From Verrucomicrobiales bacterium (GTDB taxonomy: Bacteria; Verrucomicrobiota; Verrucomicrobiia; Verrucomicrobiales; DEV007), in the NCBI GenBank assembly GCA_016795505.1, contig JAEUHH010000064.1, positions 1 through 64,000 of the forward strand: a stretch of DNA of 64,000 nt. Direction: 5' to 3'. The translations under genes and the position numbers were made by a program. The notes below the pieces were generated by a model. It saw nothing but the letters and a program-made list of their open reading frames with translations. It was not told where the DNA came from and did not search any database. Positions 3,700 to 12,355 of the stretch are shown piece after piece (positions within the stretch are counted from its first letter, which is position 1; every line of letters starts with the position of its first letter).

Positions 3700-4413
3700 A
3701 TGAAAAAGCTCCTCGTCGTCCTCAATGATTTGGAAGGTTCCGGAAAGTCCACCGTGGCCCGGACCTTGTCCCACTACCTCAGCGACCAATCTGTGCGCCA
3801 CTCCCTCATCATCAGCGATGAGAGTGATGCCGAAGCCGGCCTGACCGGAGAATTCTGGGACATCGAGGACGAAATCGAGATGGGCCAGCTGATCCGGAGC
3901 CTCGATCGGAACGACGCCGTGGTCCTCGACATCGCCAGCGGCGCCGCCCGGAACTGGGCGGAATTCTGTGAAGCCGAGGAACTCGACTCCGTGCTCTCCG
4001 AGATGGATGTCGAGATGACCCTGATCATCCCCGAGCACCGCGCCGAGCGTTGCCACGAGGAGATCGTCGACTTGGCCGAGATCTTTTCCGATCAAGCCGA
4101 TTACGTCATCGTCCACCTGCCCATCGAGCCGAAGGGATCGGTGGAGGAAAAATGGAAGGGCGGCTACGCGGCCAAGGCCGTCAACTACCTCGGCGCGCTG
4201 GAACTCACCCTGCCCGGCATTGATGCCGACCTCGAGACCGCGCTTGAGTCCAGCGATCTGTCGCTCGGCCAGGCGCTCGGCCAGCTCGACGAGTTGCCCC
4301 GTTTCCTGGAGGTGCAGGTTACGGAATGGCGTGAAAAAGCAACACTTGCATGTGAGCGCGCTTCGGAATATTTGATTCCCGAGCGCGTCGATGGTCTGGT
4401 CAGCACCCGCTGA
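3700..4413 (+). CDS. acidic P-loop NTPase of unknown role
   Basis: 237 residues. The N-terminus has a hydrophobic strand followed by a Walker A loop ending GSGKST (residues 13-18), although the first Gly of the classic pattern is Asp. A second hydrophobic strand (AVVLDIAS, residues 73-80) fits Walker B. The remainder is strongly acidic and helical. The fold could be ParA/MinD-like or related to the plasmid nucleotide-binding proteins of the StbB/TraL type; nothing in the sequence decides this. The gene stands alone, with its own promoter, an AT-rich upstream region unlike its neighbours, and a strong terminator. It could have been acquired by transfer. Confidence 0.75.
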   Translation: MKKLLVVLNDLEGSGKSTVARTLSHYLSDQSVRHSLIISDESDAEAGLTGEFWDIEDEIEMGQLIRSLDRNDAVVLDIASGAARNWAEFCEAEELDSVLSEMDVEMTLIIPEHRAERCHEEIVDLAEIFSDQADYVIVHLPIEPKGSVEEKWKGGYAAKAVNYLGALELTLPGIDADLETALESSDLSLGQALGQLDELPRFLEVQVTEWREKATLACERASEYLIPERVDGLVSTR

Positions 4414-4498
4414 TCCGTCCGGCGCAAGCCAACCAATTTCTGGAGTATTCGTTTGGAGGACGATACGGAGCGGGTCCTGTAGGCTCGCTCCAAAAAGA

Positions 4499-4533
4499 GC
4501 CCCCGGTCCGAGTGGACCGGGGGCTTCTTTTTT
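4499..4533. terminator. bidirectional terminator between convergent genes
   Basis: An 11-bp perfect stem, GCCCCCGGTCC (4499-4509) with GGACCGGGGGC (4514-4524), closes a GAGT loop. TTCTTTTTT follows, and an A-rich stretch precedes it. It separates the P-loop gene from the leftward operon. Confidence 0.95.
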
Positions 4534-4555
4534 GCCCCATTTTCAGCCAGGTCAC

Positions 4556-4999
4556 TCAGACCGGCAGGATCTTGCGCATCCGACGATGAGGCAGGGTGAC
4601 CTCGACAAAAGGCGGGCCCTCCACCGCATAGCCAAGCGGCTCGTAAAACGGCACCACCGTCGCGCGGGCGTTCAGCACCAGCTCCCGGATGCCCCGCTCG
4701 CGGGCGTACTGCTCGGCAAAGGCCACCAGCATCCGTCCCAGACCCCGACCACGCCACTCCTCGGCCACTGCTACCTGCCGCATTTTGGCGATGCCATCGC
4801 CCAGCACGTTCAGCACCAGACAGCCGGCCAGGATCGACCCGTCATCGCTCCAGATCGCCAGATGCCAGTCGCCATGCTCCGCAGCCAGCTCATCCGGGGA
4901 GAAATCCAGGCCCAGCGGCAGCCGCAACACCGTGCGGCGCAGCGCCACCGCTTGGGCGTAGGCGGGCGAGCCGTGGTCGATGGGAGTCAGGACAGGCAA
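4556..4999 (-). CDS. GNAT family N-acetyltransferase
   Basis: 147 residues from a TTG start at 4999 that overlaps the end of the DoxX-like gene by 13 bp. A longer open frame reaches 5392, but that part is only the shadow of the DoxX-like gene. The acetyl-CoA-binding motif is clear (residues 80-88, E-E-W-R-G-R-G-L-G), as are the following helix (AFAEQYARERG) and the C-terminal FYEPLGY strand-loop. The length matches small single-domain GNATs. The acceptor is unknown. It is the last gene of the leftward operon and ends just before a bidirectional terminator. Confidence 0.88.
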   Translation of the reverse strand: MPVLTPIDHGSPAYAQAVALRRTVLRLPLGLDFSPDELAAEHGDWHLAIWSDDGSILAGCLVLNVLGDGIAKMRQVAVAEEWRGRGLGRMLVAFAEQYARERGIRELVLNARATVVPFYEPLGYAVEGPPFVEVTLPHRRMRKILPV

Positions 5000-5412
5000 G
5001 GTGCGGATGGCGTGGGTTTGCTGGGGACCAGTGGGCTCAGCCTCCACACCACCCAGGCCACCGCATAGAGACAGGCATCCTTGGCGATGCCGCCATGCAT
5101 GTCCTTCAGCGAGTCCGGGTGAAAGCCGACCACCAGAAAGATCAGAATCGTCATCGTGACCGATGCCGTCAACACCGCCGCGCGCTCCAGCCGGCCCAGG
5201 CCGATCGAGATACCTGCCACGATCATCACCAGCCCGAGCCCCACGAGGAAGCGGTCCGGATCGGGCCAGAACAGCCCGGAACGCAGCACGAGATCCCGCT
5301 GCATCGCGGTGGGGCCCAGGATCTTGGGCACCAATCCCTCCCAGATCCAGACAAAAGCCAGCGACCAGCGGCAGATGACCTTCAGTTTCCAAAGTTCGAT
5401 GGCGGATGGCAT
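4987..5412 (-). CDS. DoxX-like small integral membrane protein
   Basis: 141 residues with four predicted membrane segments, near residues 13-30, 55-73, 80-97 and 109-125. The N-terminal pattern (R-W-S-L-A-F-V-W-I-W-E-G-L-V-P-K) resembles DoxX-like proteins. Their biochemical role is poorly defined; some work with thiol or redox systems. It lies 6 bp after the DUF2071 gene and overlaps the GNAT gene, so it is part of the same transcript. Confidence 0.75.
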   Translation of the reverse strand: MPSAIELWKLKVICRWSLAFVWIWEGLVPKILGPTAMQRDLVLRSGLFWPDPDRFLVGLGLVMIVAGISIGLGRLERAAVLTASVTMTILIFLVVGFHPDSLKDMHGGIAKDACLYAVAWVVWRLSPLVPSKPTPSAPCLS

Positions 5413-5418
5413 GGCAGT

Positions 5419-6291
5419 TCAGTTCGGTTGGGATTCAGGACGCGGGTTGATCCAGCCGGGCCGGCCCATCAAGACCTCGCGACAGCCGGGACTGTAATTG
5501 GCAAAGGTGAATCGGGCAGTCGCACCCCAATCGCGGCCGCCGGGAGCCCTCTCCAGCAGCGAGCGGTCGGTGAGTGCCAGGTCGATCCGGCATTGGGGCC
5601 AGGGCCGATGCCAGATCCGGAAAAAGCCGGGTTGCCGTCCGCCCGCCCAGGTCACGTAGGCGGTGTAGCGCTCCAGCAGGAATTCGTCCAGCGATCCACG
5701 GGTGCACGGAGCGAGAGGCTCCGCCAGCCAGTCCGCGTGATACCGCAGCGACGCACCGCCATCGGCCGTCGTCACCCGACCCTCGATGGCCGCGTCCTTT
5801 TCCGGCTCGTGGTGGTAGTCGATCCGGCCCAGTCGATAAGGCAGGCCGAAAGCCACCGGACCAAGAAGGACGGCCAGCCGGTTGGTCAGCCATTCGGCGA
5901 GGAAATGGATGCCCGGCTCACCATTCCGGACGACATAGGTCCGGACATTGAGGAAGGCATGGGTGGCGATCGGGGCAAAAAGTCGACGCCCCACCGATCC
6001 TCCCAGCCGCGGGCGCATGTCCCGCATGGTGAAAGCCACCAGGCTCACCCACGCCGAGCCGTCACGACAGTCCAGCGGAAAGGGCACCCAGGGCTGGAGC
6101 CGCTGCGGCTCGACCGAAAAATGGATGAACACGGCCCGCTCCCAGTCCGCCAGGAAGAGTGGCTCGCCCCGGCGCGAGTGCAGCCGCTGCCAGCCGAGTT
6201 CTCCGGGGGTGGCCGCGGTGGATGGATTCCGATCAAACAGGGTAGGATCGGAGATCGAACCCTGTTTGATCGGAAATCGCGGCGCATTCAT
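5419..6291 (-). CDS. DUF2071 (YqjF-like) protein with repeat-derived N-terminus
   Basis: 290 residues from the ATG at 6291. From about residue 35 the protein shows the DUF2071 pattern: F-L-A-D-W-E-R, a Val-Glu-Pro-Gln-Arg-Leu-Gln-Pro segment, later LVAFTM and MRDMRPR, and a tail ending G-R-P-G-W-I. Acetoacetate-decarboxylase-like folds are known in this family, but its reaction is not established. The first 20 or so codons are supplied by a copy of the dispersed 22-bp repeat, so the native start may have been displaced. No convincing downstream Met is present. It lies in the middle of the GbsR-linked operon. Confidence 0.8.
   Translation of the reverse strand: MNAPRFPIKQGSISDPTLFDRNPSTAATPGELGWQRLHSRRGEPLFLADWERAVFIHFSVEPQRLQPWVPFPLDCRDGSAWVSLVAFTMRDMRPRLGGSVGRRLFAPIATHAFLNVRTYVVRNGEPGIHFLAEWLTNRLAVLLGPVAFGLPYRLGRIDYHHEPEKDAAIEGRVTTADGGASLRYHADWLAEPLAPCTRGSLDEFLLERYTAYVTWAGGRQPGFFRIWHRPWPQCRIDLALTDRSLLERAPGGRDWGATARFTFANYSPGCREVLMGRPGWINPRPESQPN
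6226..6277. repeat. dispersed 22-bp-module repeat, head-to-head copy A
   Basis: Two perfect 17-bp inverted arms, TTCCGATCAAACAGGGT (6227-6243) and its complement (6259-6275), flank a 15-bp centre. The copy lies inside the 5' end of the DUF2071 open frame. Related copies occur near 24.3, 34.9, 43.9 and 51.8 kb. Confidence 0.93.
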
Positions 6292-6313
6292 CGGGGTGGG
6301 GCGGATGGGAGGA

Positions 6314-6715
6314 TCAACGAAAGGCGACGAACCAATAGACGGCGGCGCAGCCGCCGTAGGCAAGCGTGAGGATCCAGTGAATCGCGGTGCGTCCCGGCTG
6401 TCCGCGCCAGTGCGACGAGTCGTAGTAGAGCCATTGGATGGCGGTGCGGATGGCCCAGAATCCTCCGATCCCGGCGGCGAGCCAGCGCGCCATCGGATTG
6501 TCGCCGCCGGCGATTTCCGCCGCGAACCGCAGGGTGATGATGCCAAAGATGAGGAGCGTGATCGTGATGAACCACTTGTGGACGTGGAACACCTCGCGCA
6601 TCAGCAGTGGCAGCGCGGCGAGTTGGCTCTGCCAGCCGAGCAGGCGGTCGAGCCGGAGATTGATCAGGGCGATGGCGATCTGGCCGAGGGCGGCGAAGGT
6701 GAGGAGAGTGGGCAT
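6314..6715 (-). CDS. small four-helix membrane protein, paralogue of the gene at 7668-8075
   Basis: 133 residues with four hydrophobic segments (about 3-22, 47-65, 80-97 and 112-130). It shares with the protein at 7668-8075 a central pattern: a Leu-Pro start, a Phe/Val aromatic segment, A-A-E-I or A-T-E-I-A followed by Gly, then a Trp-x-x-R/G-A helix. The shared layout indicates duplication inside one operon. No catalytic motif is visible. It sits 7 bp after the epimerase gene. Confidence 0.78.
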   Translation of the reverse strand: MPTLLTFAALGQIAIALINLRLDRLLGWQSQLAALPLLMREVFHVHKWFITITLLIFGIITLRFAAEIAGGDNPMARWLAAGIGGFWAIRTAIQWLYYDSSHWRGQPGRTAIHWILTLAYGGCAAVYWFVAFR

Positions 6716-6719
6716 GACG

Positions 6720-6740
6720 TTTTCAGGGTTCAGTTTTCAG
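6720..6740. repeat. three degenerate heptamers at a gene end
   Basis: TTTTCAG, GGTTCAG and TTTTCAG lie in strict 7-bp phase. The middle of the block supplies the stop codon and last residues of the epimerase gene. Similar heptamers occur at 28794, 29809, 33229 and 33351. Confidence 0.65.
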
Positions 6741-7664
6741 GTGGCTGATGGCTTCGGGTAGGGTGGGGTAATGGAAGGTGAATCCTTCATCGAGGAGACG
6801 CCGGGGGATGACGCGGCGGCTTTTCACGATGAGTTCCGTCTCGGTGCGAAGGAGGACGGCGCCGATCTCCAGCATCCATCGGGTGGCGGGTAGTCCGAGG
6901 GGACAGCCGGCGGCCTGGCGGAACAGGCGCATCATCTCGGCGTTGGTGACGGGCTCCGGGGCGCACAGATTGTAGATGCCCTTGGCATCGGGTCTGCCGA
7001 TCAGCCAGTCGATCGCCCGGCAGAAATCAGTGGCGTGCAGCCACGAGACATACTGGCGACCGCCGGCCATCGACCCGCCGAGCCCGAGCCGGGCGAGGCG
7101 GAGGAGCACTTCGTTCACGCCGCCCGGCTCGGGTCCCATCACCATGGCAGTGCGGAGCGCGATCTTCCGGGTGTGCGGCACGGCTTCCGCCTCCAGGGCG
7201 GCCTCCCAGGCGGTGGCCACTTCGACAGAGAACGCGTCGCGGGCGGCAGGAGTGGCTCCGATGGCGCCGGCCTCGTCGTGGGGAGCGCCGAGGGTGTGGC
7301 GGTAGATGGTCGCGGTGCTGGCATTCAGCCAGACCGGCGGGGGAGCGGCTGCCTGACGAATCGCCTCGCCCAGAATGCGGGTGGATCGCAGGCGGGAATT
7401 CAGGATCAGGGAGCGATTGGCGGCGTGGTAGCGGCAGTTCACCGATCGGCCGGCGAGATTGATCACGGCGGCGGCGTTTTCGAGTTCCGCGGCCCACGGG
7501 CCGAGGGTCTCGCCGTCCCAGTGGATGCCGCGGCCGTGGATGACGGCCCCGGGTCGGCGGCTGAGGATGATGGGCTCTTTGCCATGGTCGTGGAGCCATC
7601 GGGCAAGGGTGCGCCCGAGAAAGCCCGAGCCGCCGGCGAGGATGATTTTTGTGTTCGGACTCAT
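6723..7664 (-). CDS. TIGR01777 family NAD(P)-dependent epimerase-like protein
   Basis: 313 residues. An N-terminal Rossmann loop G-G-S-G-F-L-G (residues 11-17) binds NAD(P), a V-I-N-L-A-G-R segment follows, and the last 50 residues match the DUF1731 tail typical of TIGR01777 proteins (R-L-L-D-E-G-F-x-F-x-Y-P). The bacterial relative is YfcH; its substrate is unknown. The final residues (K-T-E-P) come from a heptamer repeat. Gaps of 3 and 7 bp to its neighbours place it in the GbsR-linked operon. Confidence 0.9.
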   Translation of the reverse strand: MSPNTKIILAGGSGFLGRTLARWLHDHGKEPIILSRRPGAVIHGRGIHWDGETLGPWAAELENAAAVINLAGRSVNCRYHAANRSLILNSRLRSTRILGEAIRQAAAPPPVWLNASTATIYRHTLGAPHDEAGAIGATPAARDAFSVEVATAWEAALEAEAVPHTRKIALRTAMVMGPEPGGVNEVLLRLARLGLGGSMAGGRQYVSWLHATDFCRAIDWLIGRPDAKGIYNLCAPEPVTNAEMMRLFRQAAGCPLGLPATRWMLEIGAVLLRTETELIVKSRRVIPRRLLDEGFTFHYPTLPEAISHLKTEP

Positions 7665-7667
7665 GGA

Positions 7668-8075
7668 TCAGGTATTTGGGAAGATGGCAGCCGTCCCGAA
7701 GATCAAGACGAGCGCGACAAAGGCCACGGTGAGGAGGTGGTAGCCGATGCGGTAGAGTGGTGTCGTCAGATAGGGCCGGGCATCGAAGACAAAGAGCTGC
7801 ACGGCGAGGCGTGCGCCCCAGAAGACGGTGATGAATGCCGCCAGGGCCCGTGCGAGTGGCTCGCCGACGGCGATTTCGGTCGCGAAGGCCGCGGAGAGCA
7901 TACCGAAGCCGATGATGACCAGCACGATGAAGGCGCCATAGACCCAGAACAGGCGGCGGAGCATGTCGGGCAGGGGAGCGAGGGCCGACTTCCAGTCAAG
8001 TGCCCGCGGCGTGAGGGCGCTGGCGATGAGGATCGAAAGCTGAATGGCCGAGCCGAGCAGGATGAGTGTTTTCAT
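7668..8075 (-). CDS. small four-helix membrane protein
   Basis: 135 residues with four predicted membrane helices (about 3-20, 46-65, 80-97 and 113-131). It resembles the 133-residue protein at 6314-6715 in order and spacing of helices and in the A-T-E-I / A-A-E-I motif. It lies 4 bp after the DCC-MBOAT gene and 3 bp before the epimerase gene, so translation is probably coupled. Function unknown. Confidence 0.78.
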   Translation of the reverse strand: MKTLILLGSAIQLSILIASALTPRALDWKSALAPLPDMLRRLFWVYGAFIVLVIIGFGMLSAAFATEIAVGEPLARALAAFITVFWGARLAVQLFVFDARPYLTTPLYRIGYHLLTVAFVALVLIFGTAAIFPNT

Positions 8076-8079
8076 GAGG

Positions 8080-9243
8080 TCAGAGAGACGGGGTGAGGAT
8101 TTTCAGAAAGGCCGGATGAAAAAGCAGCGGAGCGGGAGCGAGAAAGACGAGCCAGGTGAAGGCGCGGCCGAAACGCTGCGGCTGATGCCGCTGGATCAGC
8201 ACGGCGAAGCCCTGAATCAGGAAGTAGAGAGTCGGCAGGCCGTAGCCGGCGCGGGCGGGCAGGGAGATGACCAGTTCGTGCGCCAGGCCCGAAGCCAGAA
8301 AGCCGGCGAGCGTGCCTCCGGTCACACCAAGTCGACGTACGAGCGGTCGGAACAGGGCGATGCGGGCCACGTCGCTGAAAGCGCGATTCCACCGGCTGCC
8401 CCACAGCTCGGCGAGCGACGCGGCGCGCCAGGGCTCCCGCATGATCGGGGCGACGGGATGGCCGAGCCTTTGCCAGAAGCCCGCCATCAGATGAAAGAGG
8501 CCGAAATGCAGGCTGGCGACCAGTCCCGCCATGGTGAGAGTGCCGGCGAGGGCTGGCAGGTGGCGAAAGCCAAAAGCGCTGGCAACGAACGCGCTCCCGA
8601 TCGCGAGCCCAACGAAGCCGTGACGGAAGGGTACTGGTCGAATCGGTGATTCTGGTCGCGGGTTCGCGAACGCGCCGGCATCCATGCCCACCCAAAGTGC
8701 GAAAAGCGGCGATATCGGGGTGGGCTCGCGGGTCCACGCGAGGATTTTGAACCCCAGCCACAGCGACCCGGCGAGGAGCCACATCCGGACGCTGTCCGGC
8801 AGGCTGGGAAAGGCCGCTCCGATCAGCCAGGCGGCGGTCGTGAGCAGCGCCGTCGTCAGCCATCCGATCCACAGTGGTGACGGGATCCGGCCATGGTGGG
8901 GCAGTTCGCAGCGCCCGCCGACGCAGTGGCGGTTCGCGGCCAGACGGCGGTAACTGGCTCTCAGGAGCGTCCGGATGCCCGGCAGGTGAGCCAGGGCGAA
9001 CAGCGGCCAACTCCACCAGATGCGTCCAGCGAGGAAGATGGCGGCATCGGCACCGCCAAAGACGCGGCCATCATGCCACCGGAGCCGCATCTCGGACTCG
9101 GCGGCGCCGTTTTCGAACGGGACGGTCACCACGCCGCAGCGACGCAGGAACGGGGTGATCGAGCGGACCGACCGGCAGCACAGCGAACAGGTGCCGTCGT
9201 AAAAGAGTCGGCTTTGGCCTGTGTTGTCAGTTTTATCATTCAT
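8080..9243 (-). CDS. DCC (DUF393) thiol domain fused to MBOAT-like acyltransferase
   Basis: 387 residues from the ATG at 9243. Residues 11-110 form a DCC domain with the motif D-G-T-C-S-L-C (16-22), a thioredoxin-like redox module. From about residue 125 the protein is membrane-embedded. It ends in wax-synthase-type MBOAT features: W-G-S-R-W-N-R-A-F (281-289) and S-G-L-A-H-E (318-323), which holds the probable catalytic His. Separate DCC and MBOAT proteins are common; a fusion suggests that thiol chemistry and acyl transfer to a membrane lipid are linked. First structural gene of the operon, 47 bp after the regulator. Confidence 0.85.
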   Translation of the reverse strand: MNDKTDNTGQSRLFYDGTCSLCCRSVRSITPFLRRCGVVTVPFENGAAESEMRLRWHDGRVFGGADAAIFLAGRIWWSWPLFALAHLPGIRTLLRASYRRLAANRHCVGGRCELPHHGRIPSPLWIGWLTTALLTTAAWLIGAAFPSLPDSVRMWLLAGSLWLGFKILAWTREPTPISPLFALWVGMDAGAFANPRPESPIRPVPFRHGFVGLAIGSAFVASAFGFRHLPALAGTLTMAGLVASLHFGLFHLMAGFWQRLGHPVAPIMREPWRAASLAELWGSRWNRAFSDVARIALFRPLVRRLGVTGGTLAGFLASGLAHELVISLPARAGYGLPTLYFLIQGFAVLIQRHQPQRFGRAFTWLVFLAPAPLLFHPAFLKILTPSL

Positions 9244-9261
9244 TTCTGTAATAAGAGAAAT
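9242..9261. promoter_or_regulatory. candidate operator 2 in front of the DCC-MBOAT gene
   Basis: ATTTCTGTAATAAGAGAAAT has the same 20-bp layout as the site at 9865-9884: 8-bp arms, 4-bp centre, identical left arm, one mismatch in the right arm. It overlaps the start codon, so a bound regulator would block expression directly. Confidence 0.6.
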
Positions 9262-9290
9262 TATGGGCCAAAAAAGAGTCATGGGGTGGC

Positions 9291-9857
9291 TCAGGTGGCC
9301 GAGCCGCCCATGAATTTGATGAGTTTGTCGCCCATGCGGAAGGCCGCCACGGCGGTCTTGGTGGGGAGTCGGTTCATCTGTTCGTAGAACTGGGTGGCCA
9401 GTTCGAAAAAACCGAGCAAGTCTTCGAGTCGCTGCCGGGTGTGGGCTTCTCCGGGTGTCGTAACGGTCCCGGTCGCTGCGGCTTCGCCGTCTGTGGCGGA
9501 TTCGGCGAGGCACTCGCGCAGGATGCTCAGGGTGGGGTCAATTTCGCGCCGTTTTCTCTCCGCGGCGATGGTGCGGAACATCTCGTAAACATCCTGCATC
9601 GACTCGAAGTGGTCTCGACGGTCGCCCGGCAGATGCACCACGCGGACGATGCCCCAGTTTTGCAACTCTTTGAGGCTGTTCGACACATTCGAGCGGGCGA
9701 CGCCGAGCGCCTCGCAGATGTCCTCGGCATTCAACGGGTGGTCCGAGGTGAAAAGGAGGGCGTGGATCTGCGCCACGGTGCGGTTGATGCCCCAGCGCGT
9801 GCCCATCTCTCCCCAGTGGAGGATGAATTTGCGGGTGACTGGCGGCAATTGGTCCAT
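9291..9857 (-). CDS. GbsR/MarR-family transcriptional regulator
   Basis: 188 residues from the ATG at 9857. Codons upstream (to 10022) lack family similarity and contain a palindrome that looks like an operator, so the shorter start is preferred. The sequence is typical of GbsR-like winged-helix repressors: H-W-G-E-M-G-T-R-W-G-I-N-R-T-V-A near residue 14, then A-R-S-N-V-S-N-S-L-K-E-L in the recognition helix, then G-D-R-R-D-H-F in the wing. It is followed by the seven-gene operon, and matching palindromes precede both units, which suggests autoregulation and operon control. Confidence 0.92.
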   Translation of the reverse strand: MDQLPPVTRKFILHWGEMGTRWGINRTVAQIHALLFTSDHPLNAEDICEALGVARSNVSNSLKELQNWGIVRVVHLPGDRRDHFESMQDVYEMFRTIAAERKRREIDPTLSILRECLAESATDGEAAATGTVTTPGEAHTRQRLEDLLGFFELATQFYEQMNRLPTKTAVAAFRMGDKLIKFMGGSAT

Positions 9858-9864
9858 TTCTTCG

Positions 9865-9884
9865 ATTTCTGTTTTGACAGAAAT
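9865..9884. promoter_or_regulatory. candidate operator 1 upstream of the GbsR-like gene
   Basis: ATTTCTGTTTTGACAGAAAT: perfect 8-bp inverted arms with a 4-bp centre, 7 bp upstream of the chosen start codon. Its near copy at 9242-9261 makes it the likely binding site of the regulator. Confidence 0.65.
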
Positions 9885-10037
9885 TCCGAAAACATCGGTT
9901 GGCAAGCGAAAAAAGGTCCCGGGAGGCATTTTGATGAGAAGGGCACCAAAACCCATCGGGTTGGGGAAATTGGCGCATCCGGGTCGCTCTCCGGCAGTCC
10001 TTCCGCAAAAAAGTCGTCCCAAATGAGCGGCTTGGCT

Positions 10038-10066
10038 TTGCTCCGGGCGCGTAGCCTACGTAAAGT
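10038..10066 (+). promoter_or_regulatory. promoter of the NfeD-like gene, leaderless geometry
   Basis: TTGCTC (10038-10043), 17-bp spacer, TAAAGT (10061-10066), then 6 nt to the ATG at 10073. This favours the ATG at 10073 over the in-frame one at 10079. Confidence 0.5.
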
Positions 10067-10072
10067 CTCCCC

Positions 10073-12355
10073 ATGCTCATGACTCCCGTCTCTCTACCCC
10101 GCCTTTTCCGATTTTCGTTGCTGGCCGGGCTTGGACTGGTCGGGCTCGCTCTCGGGCAGGGCCCGAAATCAGCTGAGCCGGAGAGTCCGGGTGCCGCTGG
10201 GGCGGATGCCTCCTGGGCGGGCAAGGGACTCATCGTGCCAGTGACGACGGACGATCTTGATGATGCGCATCGTTTTCGTGACCTGCTCGATTTGCTGGGA
10301 AAGGCGCAGGCCGATGGCGTGAAGGGAGTGGTTTTCGAGATCAACGTGCGTGGCGGTGCTTCTCTGGAGGCCCACCAGCGACTGTTGGAGGAAATGCCGC
10401 GGCTCCCCCTGACTGCCCACAGTTTTGTGAATCCATCGGCCCTCGGAGCCGGCTCGCTGATGGCGTTGGGGACCGGTGCGATTTACATGGCGCCGGCTTC
10501 GATCATCGGTGGTTCGGGCGTGGTGATCGATTCGGAGGAGAGCGAGGAGGCCCAGCGGCGAAAGCTGGCTCAGGAACTGTCAGTGCTGAAGGCGCGCGCG
10601 CGTAGCCTGGCCACCGTGAAGGGACACAACCCGGTGGTGGCCGAGGCCTTCATTGACAGCGATCTGGAGGCCCGGATCGGAGACGAGATCCTGTCTCCCA
10701 AGGGCGAGATCCTCACGCTGACGGCCGACGAGGCGGTGCGCCCGGTGGGTGGGAAGCCCGTGCTGGCAAAGGCGATCGTGGCGACGGCGGAGGATGTCTT
10801 TCGCGCGGAAGGGATCGATGCGCCGATCGTGCGGGTGTCTCCGCGCGACTTTGCCTCGCAGCGCAACCGGGCGAGGCTCAGCCCTTCGGTCAAAGCCGGA
10901 AAAGCCGCCCAGACGGCGCCCGCAGAGCCGGGGGGCGTGGAGGGAGCATCGGGTGAGCGCCGCGCGCTGTTTGGCAAGCGTGACCAGATCAGCTACGCTG
11001 GAAAAATCATCCGCATTCCCATCGGCGAGGAAGATCTGGCCACCGGCCAGGCTCGGTTTGATTTCATGGATCGAACGCTGAAGAAGGCGCAGCTCGAAGG
11101 GGCGGAGGCGGTCATATTCGACATGGATACGCCGGGCGGCTATGCCTGGTACACGAAGGGCCTGCTGCTGAACAGTCTCCAGGGCATCACCGTGCCGACG
11201 ATCACGTTTGTGAACACGCGGGCGGAGTCCGCCGGCGCCATCATCGCGATAGGAACCGATGCCATCTACATGCGGCCTGCCGCGACGATCGGTTCGGCCC
11301 TTGTGGTGGCTGGAGGCGGGGTGGAAATGCCGGAGAGTCTGGAGGACAAAGTGACTCAGATGGCCATCGCCGCGGTCCGGAACATGGCGGAGCTGAAGGG
11401 GCATCATCCCGATGTGGCCGAGGCCTTCGTGACCCAGGAGAAGGAGGTGAAGATCGATGGTGTGGTGGTTCATGAAGCCGGGCATGTGCTGAACCTCAAC
11501 ACCATCGATGCCACCCGCCAGATCGGAGGTCGGCCCGTGTTGGCAAAAGGGGTGGCCGACTCGATCGAGGACATCGTGACGCAGGAGGGGTTGACCGGAG
11601 AGGTGATCGAGGCACAGGCGTATGGGATGGAGGCCTTTGCCCATTGGATTCAGAAGATTTCCTTTGTCCTGATCATTCTGGGTCTCGCCGGTGCCTACAT
11701 GGAGATGCAGTCACCCGGCTTCGGGGTCCCGGGCATCGTGTCGCTGCTCGCGTTTGGCTTGTTCTTTTTTGGTAACTACCTGGCGGGCAATCTCGCCGGC
11801 TACGAACTGGCCGTGATGCTGGTGGTGGGGCTGATCCTGATCGGGATCGAGATATTCCTCCTGCCGGGGACGGTCATACCCGCCCTGGTGGGTGGTGTGA
11901 TGGTGCTGGTGGCGATTGGCATGGCCATGGTGGACCGGGTGGACTTCACCTATGCCTGGAAGGGCCTGCCGGGTGCTGATCGCTGGGGCGAGATCCTGGG
12001 CGAGGCGGCGCTGACGGTGACGCTTGGCTTCTTCGGGTCGATCGTGCTGCTGCTGGCGGCGATGCGTTTCCTGCCCCAGACGCGGGCGGGCGGATGGATG
12101 ATCCTGAAACAGGCGGTGCCGACCGGGGCGTCCATTCCGGTCGAGACGGGTGTCGGCGAAGCGGAGCGTCACAGCTATGTGGGATTGACCGGCGAGGCCG
12201 CGACCGATCTGAGGCCGGCTGGAAAGGGGCGGTTCGGCGGCCTGTGGCTCGACATCATCTCCGACGGCGAATTCATCGACAAAGGCACGCCCCTGCGGGT
12301 GATCAAGCACGAGGGCTCCCGTGTCGTGGTGGTGCGGGCGGGAGAGGGTGGTTGA
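10073..12355 (+). CDS. NfeD-like membrane protease with duplicated ClpP-type domain
   Basis: 760 residues. A signal peptide or first helix (11-28) precedes two ClpP/NfeD-type serine protease copies, near 50-250 and 305-510, and then four or five membrane helices (530-700) and a C-terminal OB-like region typical of long NfeD proteins. The second copy has the Ser-Lys pair: Ser386 in E-S-A-G-A and Lys426. In the first copy the aligned positions are Gly125 and Gln167, so it should be inactive. NfeD proteases are thought to act on membrane proteins. The duplication roughly doubles the usual periplasmic part. Confidence 0.88.
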   Translation: MLMTPVSLPRLFRFSLLAGLGLVGLALGQGPKSAEPESPGAAGADASWAGKGLIVPVTTDDLDDAHRFRDLLDLLGKAQADGVKGVVFEINVRGGASLEAHQRLLEEMPRLPLTAHSFVNPSALGAGSLMALGTGAIYMAPASIIGGSGVVIDSEESEEAQRRKLAQELSVLKARARSLATVKGHNPVVAEAFIDSDLEARIGDEILSPKGEILTLTADEAVRPVGGKPVLAKAIVATAEDVFRAEGIDAPIVRVSPRDFASQRNRARLSPSVKAGKAAQTAPAEPGGVEGASGERRALFGKRDQISYAGKIIRIPIGEEDLATGQARFDFMDRTLKKAQLEGAEAVIFDMDTPGGYAWYTKGLLLNSLQGITVPTITFVNTRAESAGAIIAIGTDAIYMRPAATIGSALVVAGGGVEMPESLEDKVTQMAIAAVRNMAELKGHHPDVAEAFVTQEKEVKIDGVVVHEAGHVLNLNTIDATRQIGGRPVLAKGVADSIEDIVTQEGLTGEVIEAQAYGMEAFAHWIQKISFVLIILGLAGAYMEMQSPGFGVPGIVSLLAFGLFFFGNYLAGNLAGYELAVMLVVGLILIGIEIFLLPGTVIPALVGGVMVLVAIGMAMVDRVDFTYAWKGLPGADRWGEILGEAALTVTLGFFGSIVLLLAAMRFLPQTRAGGWMILKQAVPTGASIPVETGVGEAERHSYVGLTGEAATDLRPAGKGRFGGLWLDIISDGEFIDKGTPLRVIKHEGSRVVVVRAGEGG

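Follow-up and report, generated by a model that had tools for sequence, protein, structure and literature searches.

The window, that is, the whole stretch of 64,000 nucleotides from a Verrucomicrobiales genome that we analysed, carries eight genes between positions 4556 and 9857, all of them on the minus strand. Listed from the regulator onwards, the genes and the accompanying sites are:

9865..9884, no strand: operator-like site 1, ATTTCTGTTTTGACAGAAAT, just upstream of the regulator start, 16/16 to the consensus
9291..9857, minus: GbsR/MarR-type regulator, 188 aa, MarR_2 at 49.9 bits, best solved relative MJ223 (1ku9)
9242..9261, no strand: operator-like site 2, ATTTCTGTAATAAGAGAAAT, overlapping the DCC-MBOAT start codon, 15/16 to the consensus
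8080..9243, minus: DCC-MBOAT fusion (P0002), 387 aa, Pfam DCC1-like (residues 13-110) and MBOAT_2/wax-synthase-like
7668..8075, minus: memA, an unnamed 4-TM protein
6723..7664, minus: TIGR01777/SDR39U1-like atypical short-chain dehydrogenase, TIGR01777 at 220 bits (cut-off 207.35)
6314..6715, minus: memB, paralogue of memA
5419..6291, minus: DUF2071 protein, 131.9 bits
4987..5412, minus: DoxX_3 membrane protein, 41.0 bits (cut-off 25)
about 4556..4999, minus: GNAT acetyltransferase (Pfam), for which we assumed a TTG start
4497..4526, no strand: bidirectional terminator-like hairpin after the GNAT gene, 13 pairs (10 G-C), then a T-run

MarR_2, DCC1-like, MBOAT_2, Epimerase with DUF1731, DUF2071, DoxX_3 and GNAT were all found above the curated Pfam cut-offs, and the TIGR01777 protein lies above its NCBIfam cut-off. 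The set of genes with named domains that an earlier note had read after the regulator is thus borne out by the coordinates, Pfam and NCBIfam. The same note gave gaps of 3-22 bp or overlaps. This holds for the structural genes (4, 3, 7, 22 and 6 bp in order from DCC-MBOAT to DoxX_3, then a 13-bp overlap of DoxX_3 and GNAT), but the regulator is separated from DCC-MBOAT by 47 bp. The two membrane proteins are indeed paralogous (34% identity over 127 residues), but they are not neighbours: the order is memA, TIGR01777, memB, so that the TIGR01777 gene separates them.

Judging from its sequence, the hairpin at 4497-4526 closes the operon. A sigma-70 scan of positions 4300-10200 gave no promoter. 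We rejected a defence system, as PADLOC gave only weak helix-turn-helix-type matches, and these to the regulator alone. The arrangement goes beyond chance, as it is met again in many genomes and the GNAT gene is followed by a strong hairpin of terminator-like form; on the sequence evidence the eight-gene stretch is a true, conserved and regulated operon rather than a chance array.

We searched 84,980 species genomes with an MBOAT profile and took the best 80 of 141 relatives. With duplicate contigs removed, 95 distinct loci in all hold MBOAT. A gene of the memA family adjoins MBOAT on the same strand in 91 of them (the exceptions are L028, L055, L082 and L094), lying downstream in 64, upstream in 26 and on both sides in one. 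These 91 loci span Verrucomicrobiota, Planctomycetota, Bacteroidota, Cohnella and some other MAG labels, and the cultured genera with the pair are Mucilaginibacter, Cohnella and Verrucomicrobium. The co-occurrence in other genomes on which the earlier note had staked its reading is therefore found. In a phylum-wide set of 194 genomes P0002 has matches in 11, and in the order set of 141 genomes in 37; by their query ranges, 28 of the latter cover the MBOAT part and nine the DCC part only. All 28 MBOAT genomes of the order set have a memA-family match (Fisher p 1.7e-21, with counts entered by hand), within 300 bp in 27 genomes and at 8.5 kb in one. Ten genomes of the order have a memA-like protein without an MBOAT match.

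The other families are less constant. TIGR01777, memB, DUF2071 and DoxX are present in varying subsets across the loci, and most loci from Planctomycetes, Bacteroidota and Cohnella hold the MBOAT-memA pair without them. By gene content, twelve classes of regulator loci can be told apart. Besides the window there are 35 such loci, 30 with MBOAT and memA and five with DCC and TIGR01777 but without MBOAT. In these five (L147-L150 and L155) the order is MarR, DCC, TIGR01777, followed in two of them by DUF2071. Since some regulator loci do without it, MBOAT is not indispensable to the regulon. Thus, while the earlier note was right to see an operon, its seven-gene unit is, by gene content, a modular set with MBOAT and memA as the core and not one fixed seven-gene pathway.

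By profile and by fold, the MBOAT protein is an acyltransferase of the DGAT1/wax-synthase type with predicted acyl-CoA activity, which bears out the acyltransferase proposed earlier. P0002 matches MBOAT_2 (PF13813) at 30.2 bits (cut-off 25). All 23 family members compared match MBOAT_2 at E<=0.001, and three of the 23 also match PF03062. Among PDB entries the MBOAT profile has DGAT1 as its sole match (E 1.3e-6), and in a Foldseek search with the MBOAT model DGAT1 takes ranks 1-7, followed by DltB, ACAT/SOAT and HHAT. The structure model of the fusion is confident over the MBOAT part only; the DCC part, with pLDDT mostly below 70, was left out of the analysis. N286 and H322 of P0002, which we take to be the catalytic residues of MBOAT enzymes, are invariant in 23/23 members, and the Asn and the His are each kept in 96 of 98 MBOAT sequences. 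DGAT1 and the jojoba-type wax synthase thus share with the window protein the MBOAT fold, the profile and fold match and both residues; unlike them, it is a short bacterial form, partly fused to DCC and nearly always accompanied by memA. Bacterial WS/DGAT neutral-lipid synthases are a family unrelated to MBOAT; their products would be similar, and none of the operon proteins has a WS/DGAT match in Pfam.

Neither memA nor memB has a Pfam match, and memA has no sequence relative in the PDB. The AF2 model of memA is a confident four-helix bundle (pLDDT 96.3), for which the best Foldseek match has E 1.1. The best VIA-align match is a designed helical bundle (Z 10.9, rmsd 2.8 over 115 residues), which is in the usual range for helical bundles. 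In neither search does a match stand out, and TMEM97, NACHO and others among the matches were not counted as relatives.

Elsewhere, memB-like genes travel with DUF2071. Starting from memA-like genes of genomes without an MBOAT match, we reached a second module, in which DUF2071, a membrane methyltransferase and a memB-like protein follow each other. This trio is present in 13 of the 13 loci that hold the methyltransferase (L164-L169, L171, L174-L177, L047 and L087), and two of these, L047 and L087, carry both modules together. The methyltransferase is UbiE-like and N-terminally membrane-anchored; the four that were scanned all match Methyltransf_11 above the cut-off. Because of the MBOAT-memA linkage on the one hand and the trio on the other, memA and memB appear to be small membrane partners of two different enzymes, where linkage is not proof of binding.

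The fusion of DCC to MBOAT is present in 12 loci besides the window, and in six further MBOAT loci DCC is a separate reading frame. In a Cohnella locus (L092) the order is DCC, memA, MBOAT, and in a locus from the window's own genus (L139) DCC and MBOAT lie in split frames, possibly through a frameshift. In a quick MBOAT tree at least four changes of the fusion label are required, two of them forced by starred branches; on this tree, therefore, gain or loss of the fusion took place repeatedly. The supported set around the window's MBOAT consists of nine Verrucomicrobiota rows, of which eight are fused and one, from its own genus, has split frames. The CxxC motif is kept in 26 of 27 DCC domains, and the remaining one is truncated at the end of its contig. 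With the DCC1-like thiol-disulfide oxidoreductases (PF04134) the window's domain shares this motif and a Pfam match above the cut-off; unlike them, it is fused to MBOAT. The earlier note had taken both DCC and DoxX to suggest redox chemistry. The conserved CxxC agrees with this for DCC, but the case for this putative chemistry now comes from the DCC family only. At the end of the DCC domain there is also a second cysteine pair, HC-x4-C (about residues 107 and 112 of P0002), which by eye is seen in most fused and MBOAT-less relatives and not in generic DCC1-like proteins. Is it a metal site or a second redox pair?

The regulator resembles, in sequence, the GbsR-type repressors. Its best relative in the comparison with solved structures is the winged-helix protein MJ223 (1ku9, E 8.6e-15), on which models of GbsR-family proteins are based (PMC6207618). 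Against the choline-sensing equivalog CudC it scores 46 bits, where the cut-off is 218. The same survey of the GbsR family assigns those gene contexts that it could class to osmolyte, cydAB and transporter loci, and its main text names neither Verrucomicrobia nor Planctomycetes (PMC6207618). GbsR operators are described as inverted repeats with half-sites four bp apart, and the repressors are able to work as a roadblock (PMC7396694); the predicted operator of the window has the same spacing. The operon thus has in common with GbsR, OpcR, OpuAR and CydE an MJ223-like regulator and a palindromic operator with a 4-bp centre; unlike in that family, the regulator gene is co-directional with a lipid-enzyme operon.

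The operator-like element is a 20-bp inverted repeat, ATTTCTGT-N4-ACAGAAAT, which is found once just upstream of the regulator and once close to where the structural genes start. It was spotted by eye and tested afterwards. In the 64-kb window the core pattern has two perfect matches; when up to two mismatches are allowed there are still only these two, against 0.56 expected, and two or more matches were reached in 10 of 100 shuffles. Over the 6.5 Mb of the genome, sites 1 and 2 are the only perfect occurrences of the searched core, and at three of the five one-mismatch sites elsewhere, which were examined, no operon family was found within a stretch of about 10 kb.

Among the 36 distinct regulator loci, the position of site 1 holds a site of at least 14/16 in 29, and that of site 2 a site of at least 13/16 in 27, where the best background site per locus scored 10 to 14 of 16. 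This conservation across regulator loci gives strong support for an operator, to which binding is predicted. Some of the loci with a poor site 1 (L021, L025 and L036) have the region upstream of the regulator masked, or a contig that starts inside or near the gene. There are also genuine exceptions: site 2 is absent in L017 and L085, site 1 is weak in L018 and L019, both are weak in L153, and L143 has no site of at least 12/16 at either place. In L037, L040 and L089 a TTGACA/TTGACG-like hexamer is seen by eye about 17 bp before a TATATT that is situated within or next to the operator-like site. The footprint reported for the GbsR-type CydE, TATTTCAGAAATTTCTGAAAGTTCA, is a similar palindrome (PMC6096048), although it agrees with our consensus in only 11 of 16 positions, a score that 1.1% of shuffles reach. 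The response to a signal suggested in the earlier note is sharpened in this way to control by a regulator of the GbsR type, whose own operon holds two operator-like sites, the signal itself being presumably a small ligand. One carrier, L085, comes from a record titled Klebsiella pneumoniae MAG and has the operon with the first operator site; this contig is probably mis-binned or mislabelled.

Of the remaining genes, the TIGR01777 protein has SDR39U1 as its closest solved structure (4b4o, E 5.6e-37); as it is an atypical SDR, a role in making the alcohol would be a guess. DUF2071 is described as having an acetoacetate-decarboxylase-like fold without the Schiff-base lysine (PMC4520260). The 5' end of the DUF2071 frame contains, at 6229-6273, two facing copies of a REP-like element (CCCTGTTTGATC), which translation would turn into part of IKQGSISDPTLFDRN. 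Exact copies of the element number 105+104 genome-wide, against 0+0 for a control. Because of this overlap the start codon of DUF2071 is uncertain: the protein may have a repeat-derived N-terminus or a later true start. The DUF2071 reading frames of L149 and of L151, an MBOAT-less stretch that has no regulator and stops at the contig's end, start with peptides similar to the window's. GNAT recurs in only one locus besides the window (L023) and is therefore a probable passenger. A lipid theme is hinted at by the UbiE-like methyltransferases of the sister module, by a DesA-like desaturase adjoining DUF2071 in L149 (57.8 bits against a cut-off of 400; just below the Pfam cut-off) and by a polyketide-cyclase/lipid-transport-type protein at L019.

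Taken together, we favour, with a probability of roughly one half, a self-regulated operon for the modification of membrane lipids, in which a DGAT1/wax-synthase-like acyl-CoA O-acyltransferase, under the control of a GbsR-type repressor, works with memA on a hydrophobic alcohol. The repressor would bind both palindromic sites until a small ligand releases it. MBOAT, docked with memA, would transfer the acyl group from acyl-CoA to the alcohol inside the membrane, and the product would be a neutral or capped lipid. TIGR01777, which is NAD(P)-binding, and DUF2071 may prepare or handle the lipid, with memB and DoxX as their small membrane partners, and the fused DCC domain could tune or protect the enzyme through its CxxC thiols. 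Across the loci we found no recurring pathway gene from which the acyl acceptor could be read.

If one starts from the MBOAT-less regulator loci, which keep DCC and TIGR01777, the operon could instead be a thiol/oxidant response with DCC, DoxX and TIGR01777 at its centre, a regulator sensing an oxidant or sulfur species and MBOAT added later. The near-universal CxxC would fit this, as would the fact that the GbsR-type CydE answers to sulfate (PMC6096048). However, the family-wide linkage is that of MBOAT and memA, most loci are without DCC, and no recurrent neighbour cluster is recognisable as an oxidant-defence enzyme (judged by eye from representative sequences), so that we consider this unlikely. 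It is also conceivable that there is no common pathway and that a shared regulator has brought together genes for membrane proteins that have nothing in common beyond their co-expression. The highly variable content, the evident passenger GNAT and the occurrence of both modules on their own would all be expected then; on the other hand, the same five or six families come back in different phyla and orders and in changing gene order, memA and memB are homologues, each the partner of a different enzyme, and both modules meet in two loci, which makes such a gathering rather improbable.

The presence of DltB and HHAT among the Foldseek matches raises the question whether MBOAT might modify a polymer or a protein rather than a small lipid. 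DltB/PatA-type O-acylation uses dedicated carrier or extracytoplasmic acceptor genes (DltA/C/D, PatB/AlgX-like), and in Pfam none of the eight operon proteins is such a partner. As DGAT1 stands above DltB and HHAT in Foldseek and is the sole profile match, and as only three of the 23 members match PF03062 in addition to MBOAT_2, we regard polymer or protein acylation as very improbable. Going beyond the favoured lipid-modification operon, memA and memB may be a common docking subunit for membrane-lipid enzymes of different chemistry (MBOAT; UbiE-like methyltransferases with DUF2071), in a plug-in operon where the GbsR-type switch, DCC, TIGR01777 and DoxX tailor a lipid class as yet undescribed in these phyla. 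This is a tentative idea, and we would sooner bet against it.

The earlier note knew of no named pathway for this combination, and this stands: in the open-licence PubMed Central literature we found no matching named operon and no published description of the gene set. The families themselves are known; what appears to be undescribed in that literature is their combination, along with the fusion, the partnership of memA/memB and the GbsR context. A link to light or photolyase operons was dropped, as no joint paper was found and there is no photolyase among the scanned proteins. The operon opens to experiment, all at once, five families of which little is understood (DCC, TIGR01777, DUF2071, DoxX_3 and memA/memB): it supplies a defined pair as the core, an operator prediction that expression tests can use, and carrier genera that are in culture. 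Furthermore, that such diverse bacteria carry a wax-synthase-like enzyme together with a small partner that looks obligate points to a lipid which is widespread but has been overlooked.

The core pair itself shows some irregular forms. In one genome of the order (G295, locus L172) 8.5 kb of other sequence, possibly an insertion, lie between MBOAT and memA, the sole separation at the level of the order. In a Deltaproteobacteria MAG (L036:669-2520), two tandem copies of MBOAT precede memA.
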